Positions 5,571-10,089 of a stretch of 64,000 nt of DNA are shown here, piece after piece. Positions within the stretch are counted from its first letter, which is position 1; each line of letters begins with the position of its first letter. Under the pieces are notes generated by a model. The model was not told where the DNA came from and searched no databases. It was given only the letters and a program-made list of their open reading frames with translations. A program made the position numbers and the translations under genes. The DNA comes from Acidimicrobiia bacterium (GTDB lineage: Bacteria; Actinomycetota; Acidimicrobiia; IMCC26256; JAGPDB01), in contig JAGPDB010000005.1 in the NCBI GenBank assembly GCA_018057765.1, positions 1 through 64,000 of the forward strand. The letters run 5' to 3'.

Positions 5571-6206
5571 GTGTCCAAATCTAAGAAAAATAAGAATGTT
5601 GAAAATTTCGGTGAAGAACCTTTTTCAGAAACATTAAACAAATGGCTAAAAAGCGAACATGTAAATAATGTTGCAAGTCTTAACGATGTATTTGGTGAGA
5701 AAACATTTGCTATAACTTTTCTTCTACTTATGTCATTTCCAGCACTACCAATTCCGACGGGTGGACTTTCACATGTATTTGAAGTAATAGTGATGTTGCT
5801 TTCACTTCAACTTATAATTGGCCGGAAAGTTCTATGGCTTCCAAATAAATGGAAGAATAAGCATCTAGGTAAGAACATGGAAGAAAAAGCTATACCAATA
5901 TTAATTAAATATATTACAAAACTTGAAAAAATTAGTAAACCTAGAATGTCTATATTCCTCGACGGCAAAGTTGGTACAAGCCTTTTTGGAATCATAATAT
6001 TTTCTTTTACATTAGTAGCACTTCTAGCCCCACCATTTTCTGGCTTAGACACACTGCCCTCAATCGGAGTAATTGTGATAGCGCTAGGAATAATTTTAGG
6101 AGATATTCTTTTTGTTATAGTTGGGATGATTATTGGAACATCTGGTGTAGCTGTAACCTATTTCATTGGAGAAATAGTAATCAATTTTATCAAAGGACTA
6201 TTTTGA
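5571..6206 (+). CDS. ExoD-like membrane protein
   Basis: A 211-residue protein matching the ExoD family (exopolysaccharide synthesis, ExoD) in length and pattern: a soluble N-terminus containing 'SLNDVFGEKTFAITFLLLMSFPALPIPTGG', then about four hydrophobic segments. The LLLMSFPALPIPTGG stretch is the most telling part. The biochemical role of ExoD proteins is poorly known; they are associated with exopolysaccharide production and envelope stress. The GTG start follows the stop of the surface-protein gene with no gap, and no clear ribosome-binding site is seen, so translation may be coupled. The stop TGA shares its final A with the next start (TGATG), indicating one operon with the following gene. 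Confidence 0.7.
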   Translation: MSKSKKNKNVENFGEEPFSETLNKWLKSEHVNNVASLNDVFGEKTFAITFLLLMSFPALPIPTGGLSHVFEVIVMLLSLQLIIGRKVLWLPNKWKNKHLGKNMEEKAIPILIKYITKLEKISKPRMSIFLDGKVGTSLFGIIIFSFTLVALLAPPFSGLDTLPSIGVIVIALGIILGDILFVIVGMIIGTSGVAVTYFIGEIVINFIKGLF

Positions 6207-7213
6207 TGGAGATGAATAAAAAATATTTAGAATTGTTAAGCCGGCCAGTAAGGTCAGTCGTACACTTTAACGATGTATTTTTTGAACATGATGTAGATCT
6301 TGATGCTGAATTAACTGTAATGTTTCGCAATTTAACTAACTTTTCTAATCTAATGTTTCCTATTGGCAATAATCCAAAAATTGCAGATTATGGAATTGTA
6401 TTACTTGATGATCTTATAGACGAGGAAAGGAGAATAATTGAGAAAATTAGAGGATTTGGTACCGAAGCAGCAAAAGATATATTTGCAAGTCGTCTAAAAA
6501 AACAAGTTTTATCAATTGTTAATTGTGCTCCTCGTAATGACGAAACAACACAGAATGGTATGAACGGCGAAGATTTCCATTTAGCAATTACAGATAACGG
6601 CTTAGAAATCTATGTTGTTCCTATAGAGAGATTACGTGGATTAGAAACTAGAAATCGCATACTAGCTTTATATAAAATACCAAATGAAGCTTTGCTTTCG
6701 ACAGATGGACGTCGAGAACAATTTAGATCATCAATAATCACAACATCAAGATACTTTCCAAAAACGTTGGAGAAAATTTTCGAATATGAAAATGTAGATG
6801 AACTATTTTCTGCCAAAGAAAATGGTACCCACCCAGATATTATACCCACCCAAGTACAACTTGCGGAACTGGCTTTTATTGATAAGTTTGGTAACGTAAG
6901 AATATCTGTAAAAAATAAAACGGAATTTTTAAGCCAAATTCATAATACAAAAATAGGGGATAAAATAAAACTGAGTATTGGAAATAGTAAAAAGATTGCT
7001 ATAAATTATGTTTCGAGTCTTAGGGAAATTCCTACAAGTGAACTAGGTATTTATCAGAATATAGCCGACCTAACAAATCCTTGGTCTAATGCTGGCTATT
7101 TTGAAATCGTTAAAAAAAGTATTAATCCAAATAAAGATGAAAGCTCCGCATCAAAAATATTAGAGGAACTTAATAAAGACTTTATGCATGAAGAATATTT
7201 TATTTCCGAATAG
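6206..7213 (+). CDS. Uncharacterised protein; C-terminus resembles SAM hydroxide adenosyltransferase barrel
   Basis: The start is placed at ATG 6206, overlapping the upstream stop (TGATG), with AAAGGA 8 nt before it; a TTG at 6203 is less likely. The protein has 335 residues and no membrane segment. From about residue 220 it reads ELAFIDKFGNVRISV ... GDKIKLSI ... SELGIYQNIADL...NAGYFEIV. This resembles the C-terminal beta-barrel of the DUF62/SAM hydroxide adenosyltransferase family, where IDrFGN and naGylEIA patterns are typical. An earlier 'AITDNGLEIYVVPIERL' is faintly like the DNGL motif of that family, but its N-terminal active-site motifs are not recognisable. Function is therefore open. 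It ends 13 bp from the convergent TrmB-type regulator. Confidence 0.6.
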   Translation: MEMNKKYLELLSRPVRSVVHFNDVFFEHDVDLDAELTVMFRNLTNFSNLMFPIGNNPKIADYGIVLLDDLIDEERRIIEKIRGFGTEAAKDIFASRLKKQVLSIVNCAPRNDETTQNGMNGEDFHLAITDNGLEIYVVPIERLRGLETRNRILALYKIPNEALLSTDGRREQFRSSIITTSRYFPKTLEKIFEYENVDELFSAKENGTHPDIIPTQVQLAELAFIDKFGNVRISVKNKTEFLSQIHNTKIGDKIKLSIGNSKKIAINYVSSLREIPTSELGIYQNIADLTNPWSNAGYFEIVKKSINPNKDESSASKILEELNKDFMHEEYFISE

Positions 7214-7226
7214 TTAGAACTTTTAT

Positions 7227-8036
7227 CTATAGTATTTCTTCACCCATATTCCACAATATTTTGAAAATTTGTTTTTCTTGATCTGCTAATTCTTGATTAT
7301 ATATTTCAACAGCAAAAGGTTCATCTCTGTTATATCCACAATAGGCTATAACGTTATTATAGATATATGTCTCTACTCGGATTTTGAAGATAGATTCATC
7401 TATGTAACATGCTTTTTGCATTCTTCCGTTTAGGCCTAACGGCGAAATCACTTTTTGCCATTTTTCATTATTTGTTAGATCAAAACATATTAGTTGTTTC
7501 TCGCAATAAAGTTTCCGCATCCGGTCAGCAAAGCTCTGTGGAATTGTTTCATGTTCGTCTAGATGCGCTAATTCGTAAACGTAAAATTCTTTGTCTGCTT
7601 TTGTTAAATTAAAATTAACTTGCTTTAGACCCGCTAATCCCCTATATTCGATAACTTTCGAGTCACTTTTATTTATATCGCTAAGTGATAGGAGTTGTTC
7701 AGTTGCATCAAATAGACCATCTCTTAATTTCTTGGTTTCTGTTTCTTTCTTAGTTACTAAATATTCAAGAGATTGTAAACTTAAAGCCTCGTAGGTTGTA
7801 CCATAATGTTTTTGGTCTACCTTGACAAGCTCTAGATCAACAAGTGATTCCAGTATTGGATAAAGCCTTGTCCTTCCACTACCTTGAGCTTTAGATAGCG
7901 ATAAGACACTTGAGCTACCTATTTGCAATAAATAGAGATATGTAGTGATTTGGTCATCATTTAATCCCAATTCGGACAGGAATAATTTAGTGTTGTCATT
8001 AATTTGTGACGATATTGAAATACTCCCTTTTACCAT
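7227..8036 (-). CDS. TrmB-family transcriptional regulator
   Basis: A 269-residue protein whose residues about 12-110 form a TrmB-type winged helix (LGLNDDQITTYLYLLQIGSSSVLSLSKAQG...RTRLYPILESLVDLELV), followed by a helical stretch (TKKETETKKLRDGL) and a C-terminal sensor-like domain. TrmB regulators bind palindromic operators and respond to small ligands, often sugars. It is divergent from the membrane protein at 8130, and a perfect 20-bp palindrome lies between their -35 boxes. It probably represses itself and that gene. The ATG is 6 nt from a TATAAT box, so the mRNA is probably leaderless. The ligand is unknown. Confidence 0.8.
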   Translation of the reverse strand: MVKGSISISSQINDNTKLFLSELGLNDDQITTYLYLLQIGSSSVLSLSKAQGSGRTRLYPILESLVDLELVKVDQKHYGTTYEALSLQSLEYLVTKKETETKKLRDGLFDATEQLLSLSDINKSDSKVIEYRGLAGLKQVNFNLTKADKEFYVYELAHLDEHETIPQSFADRMRKLYCEKQLICFDLTNNEKWQKVISPLGLNGRMQKACYIDESIFKIRVETYIYNNVIAYCGYNRDEPFAVEIYNQELADQEKQIFKILWNMGEEIL

Positions 8037-8042
8037 GACTAC

Positions 8043-8071
8043 ATTATATTATAAAGTAATAGAATTGTAAA
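8043..8071 (-). promoter_or_regulatory. Promoter of the TrmB-family regulator (leaderless)
   Basis: On the minus strand a TTTACA (-35, 8066-8071) and a TATAAT (-10, 8043-8048) are separated by 17 bp. The -10 box ends 6 nt before the ATG at 8036, which places the transcription start at or next to the start codon. The -35 box touches the palindrome at 8071-8090. Confidence 0.7.
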
Positions 8072-8090
8072 TGTCTGATATATCAGACAT
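8071..8090. promoter_or_regulatory. Perfect 20-bp palindrome, probable TrmB operator
   Basis: The half-site ATGTCTGATA is followed directly by its exact reverse complement. It sits between two divergent promoters: it overlaps the -35 box of the regulator by one base and ends 4 bp before the -35 box of the membrane-protein gene. This is the expected place for the binding site of the adjacent regulator. Binding is inferred from position and symmetry. Confidence 0.75.
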
Positions 8091-8094
8091 CATT

Positions 8095-8123
8095 TTGAAA
8101 ATAAATATTTTTGATGCTTTAAT
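8095..8123 (+). promoter_or_regulatory. Promoter of the 8130 membrane-protein gene (leaderless)
   Basis: TTGAAA (8095-8100), a 17-bp spacer and TTTAAT (8118-8123) precede the ATG at 8130 by 6 nt. No Shine-Dalgarno sequence is possible in that space, so the transcript is probably leaderless. Confidence 0.65.
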
Positions 8124-8129
8124 AGTTCT

Positions 8130-8708
8130 ATGAATGTTTTATTTGCCGTACTTTCAGCTCTGATAGTTATAATTGCTTCTATACCATACATAATTGACAT
8201 TTTCACAGGCAGAGCACAACCAGCCAGATCTACAAGAATAATGTATATGCTCCTTGTAATATTAGGGTTATTACAATCCAAAGAACTAGGTTCTGGGTGG
8301 TCATTAGCACTTATATATGGCGAGATAGCTCAAGGTTCAGCAGTATTCTTCATGTCACTGAAATATGGGTTGGGTGGATTCTCAAGATTGGATAAAATTT
8401 GCTATATTTTTTTAACTTTAGATTTAAGCGTATGGCTATTAACCAAAAATCCTCTTATTGGCATATTACTAACTCTATTTGCAGACCTAATAGCTACTCT
8501 ACCTACTATTGTAAAGACTATTAAAATACCAGAAAGCGAGACGCCAATTTATTGGTTTCTTGGCTCAATTGCAGCTATTTTTGCGATTTTTAGTGAAACA
8601 AATTATTCATTAATTAAAATAATATTTCCAATTTACATATTCGTCATAAACGCCTTTGTATTTTCACTAACACTGAAGAGGAGTAAAAGAAACATCTTAT
8701 CTCATTAG
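8130..8708 (+). CDS. Small polytopic membrane protein with internal repeat, PQ-loop-like
   Basis: A 192-residue protein with about six to seven hydrophobic helices. Two similar stretches occur: ASIPYIIDIFTGRAQPARS plus following hydrophobics near residues 15-50, and IATLPTIVKTIKIPESETP plus hydrophobics near 112-150. Each has a helix with a conserved proline, a short basic turn and a Ser/Thr before the next helix. That pattern resembles the repeated PQ-loop/SemiSWEET fold of small sugar or solute carriers, though the canonical PQ pair is absent. Its gene is controlled from the same intergenic region as the TrmB-type regulator. A solute carrier regulated by TrmB is a reasonable inference; the substrate is unknown. 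Confidence 0.6.
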   Translation: MNVLFAVLSALIVIIASIPYIIDIFTGRAQPARSTRIMYMLLVILGLLQSKELGSGWSLALIYGEIAQGSAVFFMSLKYGLGGFSRLDKICYIFLTLDLSVWLLTKNPLIGILLTLFADLIATLPTIVKTIKIPESETPIYWFLGSIAAIFAIFSETNYSLIKIIFPIYIFVINAFVFSLTLKRSKRNILSH

Positions 8709-8829: not shown

Positions 8830-10089
8830 GTGTTAAATTACTATGAAATAGTTGAGGATAAACTTAATAGTCTCAAGGAATCTGGTAATTATCGCATATT
8901 CTTAGATGTTGAGAAAAATACACAAACATTTCCACATTTTCAATTTACATTAGATGAAAAACGTTATAAAGCAACCAATTGGTGTTCAAATGATTATTTG
9001 GGTATGAGCACAAACCCTGATGTTATAGAGACTGCTAAAGATGTCATCAGTATTAGTGGTTCTGGTAGTGGTGGTACTAGAAATATTTCTGGAACTACAA
9101 CACATCATAAAAATTTAGAAAATTCATTGGCCGAGCTACACAATAAAGATTCAGCACTTATTTTCGGTGGTGCTTATCTTGCAAATCTGACTACATTGAC
9201 TACTCTTGGAAAAATTTATGATGATTTAATATATTTTTCAGACGAACAAAATCATGCATCACTCATAGAAGGTATGCGAGCATCGCGTTGTGAAAAGAAA
9301 ATATTTGATCATAACGATTTAGTTCAATTAGAAGAATTACTAAAAGAACAAGATATAGATCGACCGAAGATAATTGTTTTTGAATCTGTCTACTCAATGA
9401 CCGGTACTACAGCAAACATCAAAGAGATCGTAGCTTTGGCAAAAAAATACAATGCTTTAACCTATATAGATGAGGTACATGGTGTTGGGCTTTATAATCA
9501 TGATGGTGCAGGCTTAGCAGCACAACTTGGTATTTCTGATGAAATAGATATAATCAATGGTACATTAGCAAAAGCATTCGGTGTCATTGGTGGATATATT
9601 GCTAGTTCAAGAAATATGGTTGACGCAATAAGAAGCTTTGGAAGTGGTTTTATTTTCACTACTTCCCTACCACCATCAGTTTGTGCAAGTGCAAATAAGA
9701 GTATCGAGATAGTTAGCGAAGAAAACTCGATGAGAATAGATTTGCATAATAACGTACAAATGCTCCGGTCGATACTTCGTGAATATAATATAGAGTTTGA
9801 AGATAACGATTCACATATTACGCCTATACCCGTCTGTGATTCGTTCCTTTGTAAAAAATATGGTGACGAGCTTCTATTTGAACACGGCATATATATTCAA
9901 CCCGTAAATTACCCAACAGTGCCTAGAGGCTTTGAAAGATTAAGGGTGGTAGTTACGCCTAAACACTCAGTAAACGATATGATTTCATTAGCAGCAAGTC
10001 TTTCTAAAGTTATGTCGAATTCAAAAAATAGTCAGCTGGACATTAGCAGTATTGAAAATGATGAAAAAGAAGATCAGTTAATAAAGTAA
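8830..10089 (+). CDS. hemA: 5-aminolevulinate synthase (Shemin pathway)
   Basis: A PLP enzyme of the alpha-oxoamine synthase family that condenses glycine and succinyl-CoA to 5-aminolevulinate, the first tetrapyrrole precursor. Motifs include [19 protein letters not shown] (T83, N85), [11 protein letters not shown] (H142), YIDEVHGVG (D214, H217) and NGTLAKAFG with the PLP lysine at K248, then FTTSLPP and PTVPRG.ERLR. These residue numbers coincide with those I recall for the alphaproteobacterial enzyme, which separates it from the related KBL and BioF enzymes. The GTG start lies 6 nt after a TATACT box, so it is probably leaderless. Most actinobacteria make aminolevulinate from glutamyl-tRNA, so the gene suggests transfer or a special use. 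Its 3' end overlaps the convergent gene by 16 bp. Confidence 0.88.

Follow-up and report, generated by a model that had tools for sequence, protein, structure and literature searches.

A TrmB-type winged-helix regulator and a small PQ-loop-like membrane protein are encoded back to back in the window (the whole 64-kb stretch of DNA analyzed here), on either side of a perfect 20-bp palindrome that is very probably the regulator's own binding site. The reading we favor, with a probability of about 0.62, is that the two genes form a local, autoregulated regulator-transporter pair, in which a regulator dimer on the operator would repress both genes until released by a solute. The circuit would be small and self-contained, with one regulator, one operator, two promoters and one transporter-like protein.

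Promoters and palindrome between the two genes

The start codons at 8036 (minus strand) and 8130 (plus strand) enclose 93 nt, inside which ATGTCTGATATATCAGACAT at 8071-8090 forms a perfect 20-bp palindrome (Table 1). An earlier note on this DNA had described two divergent promoters, TTTACA-17-TATAAT and TTGAAA-17-TTTAAT, in both of which 6 nt separate the -10 box from the ATG, and the sequence bears this out: both are sigma70-type and represent the top-scoring promoter-like pair in their direction. The regulator promoter matches the consensus at 11 of 12 positions and is the best pair of the region, while the membrane-protein promoter reaches 10/12 and carries a T instead of an A at position 2 of its -10 box, so that a stricter scan missed it. 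The same note placed the palindrome exactly between the two -35 boxes; the palindrome itself stands but the exact centering does not, as it shares one base with the minus-strand -35 box and lies 4 bp from the plus-strand one. Its center falls at -44.5 and -49.5 (with the A of each ATG as +1), just upstream of the -35 boxes. The leaderless starts, presented as a special trait, turned out to be ordinary in this genome, since 18 of the 48 window genes display a TANNNT 6-8 nt from the start of their longest ORF, versus an average of 5 when the position is shifted, and leaderless genes are reported to exceed 20% of actinobacterial genes (PMC3160421).

Table 1. Features of the divergent locus in window coordinates
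Feature	Position	Strand	Remarks
TrmB-type winged-helix transcriptional regulator, 269 aa	7227..8036	-	PF01978 at residues 20-86; orthologue in G001 (49% identity)
Regulator promoter, -10 box TATAAT	8043..8048	-	6 nt from ATG (8036); same geometry in G001
Regulator promoter, -35 box TTTACA	8066..8071	-	overlaps operator by 1 bp
Probable operator ATGTCTG-ATATAT-CAGACAT	8071..8090	none	10/10 pairing; arms kept in G001
Membrane-protein promoter, -35 box TTGAAA	8095..8100	+	4 bp from operator
Membrane-protein promoter, -10 box TTTAAT	8118..8123	+	6 nt from ATG (8130)
7-TM SWEET/PQ-loop-like membrane protein, 192 aa	8130..8708	+	seven predicted helices; weak fold/profile matches

No other perfect palindrome in the window exceeds 16 bp. 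For random sequence of this composition, perfect palindromes reaching 20 bp or more are estimated at 0.13 per 64 kb, and one arose in 124 of 100,000 shuffles of the 93-nt intergenic region (about 1 in 800); its occurrence by chance is locally unlikely, not astronomically so. At the scale of a 1.76-Mb genome of this composition, about 3.5 are expected, which speaks for a chance feature, or for an RNA hairpin and nothing else. We regard either as very improbable, because position and arm sequence are kept at the orthologous locus, because both predicted start sites are downstream of the palindrome, which leaves it outside both predicted mRNAs, and because no terminator-like feature was found. 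It is conservation, rather than the odds against chance, that makes the palindrome convincing.

Conservation of the probable operator at an orthologous locus

Orthologues were searched for in 60 relatives, then across the order (58 genomes) and the phylum (397 genomes). A single orthologue of the regulator was recovered, with 49% identity, in the same-genus genome G001 (contig CALMUU010000176.1, from an uncultured actinobacterium); the order and phylum searches yielded none outside the genus. A single-protein search of genome contigs gave no match to the regulator, an alignment-based search of contigs recovered the G001 record alone, and no relative was encoded on the plasmid records searched. 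The gene is perhaps of horizontal origin.

The G001 regulator adjoins an orthologue of the membrane protein (48% identity) in the same divergent arrangement, and the region between them holds ATGTCTGAAGCAACAGACAT (ATGTCTG-AAGCAA-CAGACAT), with the same 20-bp span. All 14 bases of the arms are kept, while 4 of the 6 central bases differ, both centers being read in the same orientation. A site bound by a dimer would be expected to vary in just this way, its arms being contacted and its center left free. The operator lies 34 and 39 nt from the start codons in the window and 34 and 38 nt in G001, the regulator side being the constant one, and the flanks aligned on the operator agree at 15/34 and 15/38 positions (about 40% identity). 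None of 20,000 shuffled region pairs had an inverted repeat in common, even with 7-bp arms. Conservation of the palindrome upstream of orthologues was a check set beforehand, and G001 returned the same half-sites, the same span and a near-identical spacing; the case, as read from these sequences, comprises two orthologous loci and hence one comparison.

On the regulator side, the G001 promoter (TTGACG-17-TATTAT-6-ATG) has the exact geometry of the window, whereas the membrane-protein side (TTGTAC-16-TAGATT-6-ATG) scores 7/12 and is poorer than its window counterpart. The outer neighbors differ between the two loci, with a 5-aminolevulinate synthase gene in the window and a recA-like one at the G001 locus, which makes the pair itself the conserved unit.

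Neighboring genes in the window

The 5-aminolevulinate synthase gene (8830-10089; TIGR01821, 514 bits for a cut-off of 338) adjoins the divergent pair and has a -10 box of its own, TATACT, 6 nt from its GTG start. A link to the pair was rejected on account of this box and of the absence of the gene from the G001 locus. Positions 5571-6206 encode an ExoD-family membrane protein (113.6 bits), followed at 6203-7213 by a 336-aa gene with a faint, below-cut-off match to the C-domain of SAM hydroxide adenosyltransferase.

Uniqueness of the site

The exact motif ATGTCTG-N6-CAGACAT occurs once in the genome of the window (G000) and once in G001, at the divergent pair in both cases, and none of a further 59 genomes, drawn from the order and class, contains it. 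In another genome of the genus, G002, both the motif and a detectable regulator orthologue are missing. The search for further copies elsewhere in G000 found no site with one mismatch and nine with two, eight of these within genes; the site is thus essentially unique, in line with a self-contained unit. The remaining two-mismatch site, C30:10094, stands 175 bp ahead of a gene for a secreted-looking protein of 806 aa and was judged a chance occurrence. The motif is missing from all of eight other upstream regions of PQ-loop-like paralogues that were examined in the genus. Because the exact motif is unique, one-mismatch sites are lacking and the paralogue upstream regions are devoid of it, the circuit would be local and single-site.

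These counts also weigh on the idea that another, unlinked transcription factor controls the divergent pair from the palindrome. It is left room by the fact that binding of the adjacent regulator is a prediction from sequence, yet the site of a wider regulator should recur in the genome, where no second exact or one-mismatch copy was found, and the motif is absent from G002, where the regulator is undetectable as well. Moreover, local divergent regulators typically bind the intergenic region common to both genes. We consider an unlinked factor improbable.

The TrmB-type regulator

The earlier assignment to the TrmB type holds for the DNA-binding domain, which matches PF01978 over residues 20-86 (E=1.4e-9; 38.1 bits for a cut-off of 25.6), and does not extend to the C-terminal half, which lacks a match to the TrmB effector domain. 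Neither PF11495 nor any other Pfam family was found in this half with E up to 10, whether the full length or residues 125-269 alone were searched, and the NCBIfam TrmB/TrmBL1 models scored far below cut-off. We did not file the protein as a sugar-sensing TrmB because of this lack of a C-terminal Pfam match. The G001 orthologue scores 33 bits against PF01978, and these two genes are the only ones above the cut-off in their respective genomes.

The helix-turn-helix segment GRTRLYPILESL is identical in the two orthologues, within an invariant SVLSLSKA..(x)GRTRLYPILESL, as a conserved operator would require. The recognition helix of Pyrococcus TrmB carries Tyr50 (PMC4158304), of which Tyr59 of the regulator may be the counterpart. 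The structure model, with a pLDDT of 43.8, is usable for the HTH domain alone.

The PQ-loop-like membrane protein

The guess that the membrane protein belongs with the PQ-loop proteins gained weak support from sequence and fold and none from the curated SWEET/PQ-loop family models of Pfam and NCBIfam, which gave no match above cut-off, hence our wording 'PQ-loop-like' in place of a family assignment. Seven helices, ordered 3+1+3, are predicted both by hydropathy and by a low-confidence structure model (pLDDT 58), for which two alignment rows were usable. Foldseek searches with this model returned the KDEL receptor first, as a weak match (KDELR, E 0.021, TM 0.60), then AtSWEET13 (E 0.18) and the eukaryotic SWEET 5ctg (E 0.41), with cystinosin sixth (E 0.96), all of them PQ-loop proteins. 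A profile built from the paralogues matches 4x5m, which we take to be the E. coli SemiSWEET, weakly (E=0.012) and over its proline motif. Proline motifs are conserved in both halves (IPYIxDIxxGRxxPARSTR and PTIxKTIxxPxSETP), and an internal repeat in the expected register was scored at P=0.11. Taken together, a PQ-loop-like transporter is moderately likely on these predictions.

Matches to the membrane protein number five in G000, six in G001 and one in G002, which suggests that the family expanded in the genus, with 1 to 6 copies per genome; one G001 member is a tandem duplicate (L021:6139-7340). Several families of the class also contain relatives, and distant ones are found on Burkholderia-type and Rhizobium replicons. 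In the class, their divergent neighbors are non-TrmB genes, often thioesterase-like as judged by eye. Within one actinobacterial family (loci L054-L077), the relatives repeatedly adjoin a divergent gene bearing the motif FLFGGCGLAAGLVALE, thioesterase-like by eye, and this pairing looks conserved.

Elsewhere in the genome of the window (L022:6418-7706), a PQ-loop-like paralogue immediately precedes a TetR-type regulator gene (PF00440) in one apparent operon, just before which stands an imperfect 23-nt inverted repeat (7714-7736/7745-7767). These genes are perhaps a second regulator-transporter pair.

Proposed mechanism

We propose that the TrmB-type regulator dimerizes and binds the single ATGTCTG-N6-CAGACAT site via its winged-helix domains. 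At each of the two divergent promoters, the bound dimer would cover the -35 edge and the alpha-CTD region upstream of it, so that the regulator's own gene and that of the membrane protein would be repressed together. Release would come from a small solute, probably the membrane protein's substrate or a product thereof, which would bind the C-terminal half of the regulator and weaken its hold on DNA, turning both genes on. That this half matches no Pfam ligand domain counts against the scheme. Binding of the regulator at this site, repression over activation and a transport-linked ligand are what we infer, and repression of both genes is favored because the window promoters are near-consensus.

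The position of the operator is by itself compatible with activation on the membrane-protein side: it lies upstream of the core promoter, not over it, and activators too sit just upstream of the -35 box, where its center lies. The regulator could then activate the membrane-protein gene through a sigma or alpha-CTD contact from -49.5 while repressing its own, and TrmB proteins have been described that repress, that activate or that do both (PMC4158304). The poor membrane-protein promoter of G001 (7/12) fits an activated promoter and counts against repression of both genes. Activation nevertheless seems unlikely to us, given the near-consensus promoter of the window gene (10/12) and a spacing that is not strictly kept on the membrane-protein side (39 versus 38 nt), the regulator side keeping 34 nt in both genomes.

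Knowing the ligand that frees the regulator from the operator would point to a likely substrate of a family of small bacterial membrane proteins without known functions, with paralogues across the genus, relatives in other actinobacterial families and distant ones on Burkholderia-type replicons. More tentatively, and with the odds rather against it, the TrmB-type regulator may have an undescribed effector domain and sense the substrate of an uncharacterized bacterial family of 7-TM SWEET-like transporters; if so, the regulator would be a handle on what this widespread family carries.

Relation to known systems

The closest parallels for the regulator are the archaeal sugar regulators TrmB, TrmBL1 and Tgr, which likewise combine a PF01978 winged helix with palindromic inverted-repeat operators near the promoter and local control of transport genes, autoregulation having been proposed for Tgr (PMC4158304). 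The present system differs by its bacterial host, by a C-terminal half (about 145 aa) without a PF11495 match and by an operator unlike the archaeal TACT-N3-AGTA, TATCAC-N5-GTGATA and TACT-N7/8-GAGTA (PMC4158304).

With the SWEET/SemiSWEET/PQ-loop superfamily, the membrane protein has in common its seven predicted helices in 3+1+3 order, its proline motifs and its best fold matches, whereas it lacks a Pfam match, and these fold matches, of which the best reaches E=0.021, are weak and come from a low-confidence model. In bacteria, the relatives of SWEETs are mostly SemiSWEETs with 3 TM helices, from which the predicted 7-TM topology also sets it apart.

Our literature search found no paper combining TrmB with PQ-loop proteins, nor any joining SemiSWEET with a transcriptional regulator and an operon. 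The layout is that of the divergent local regulator-transporter pairs of TetR, MarR and other types, with back-to-back genes and one operator for both promoters; the difference is that the regulator is here of the TrmB type and its putative target PQ-loop-like. Judging from the sequences compared, the unit is real, conserved and functional-looking, a familiar kind of arrangement with an uncommon pair of players.
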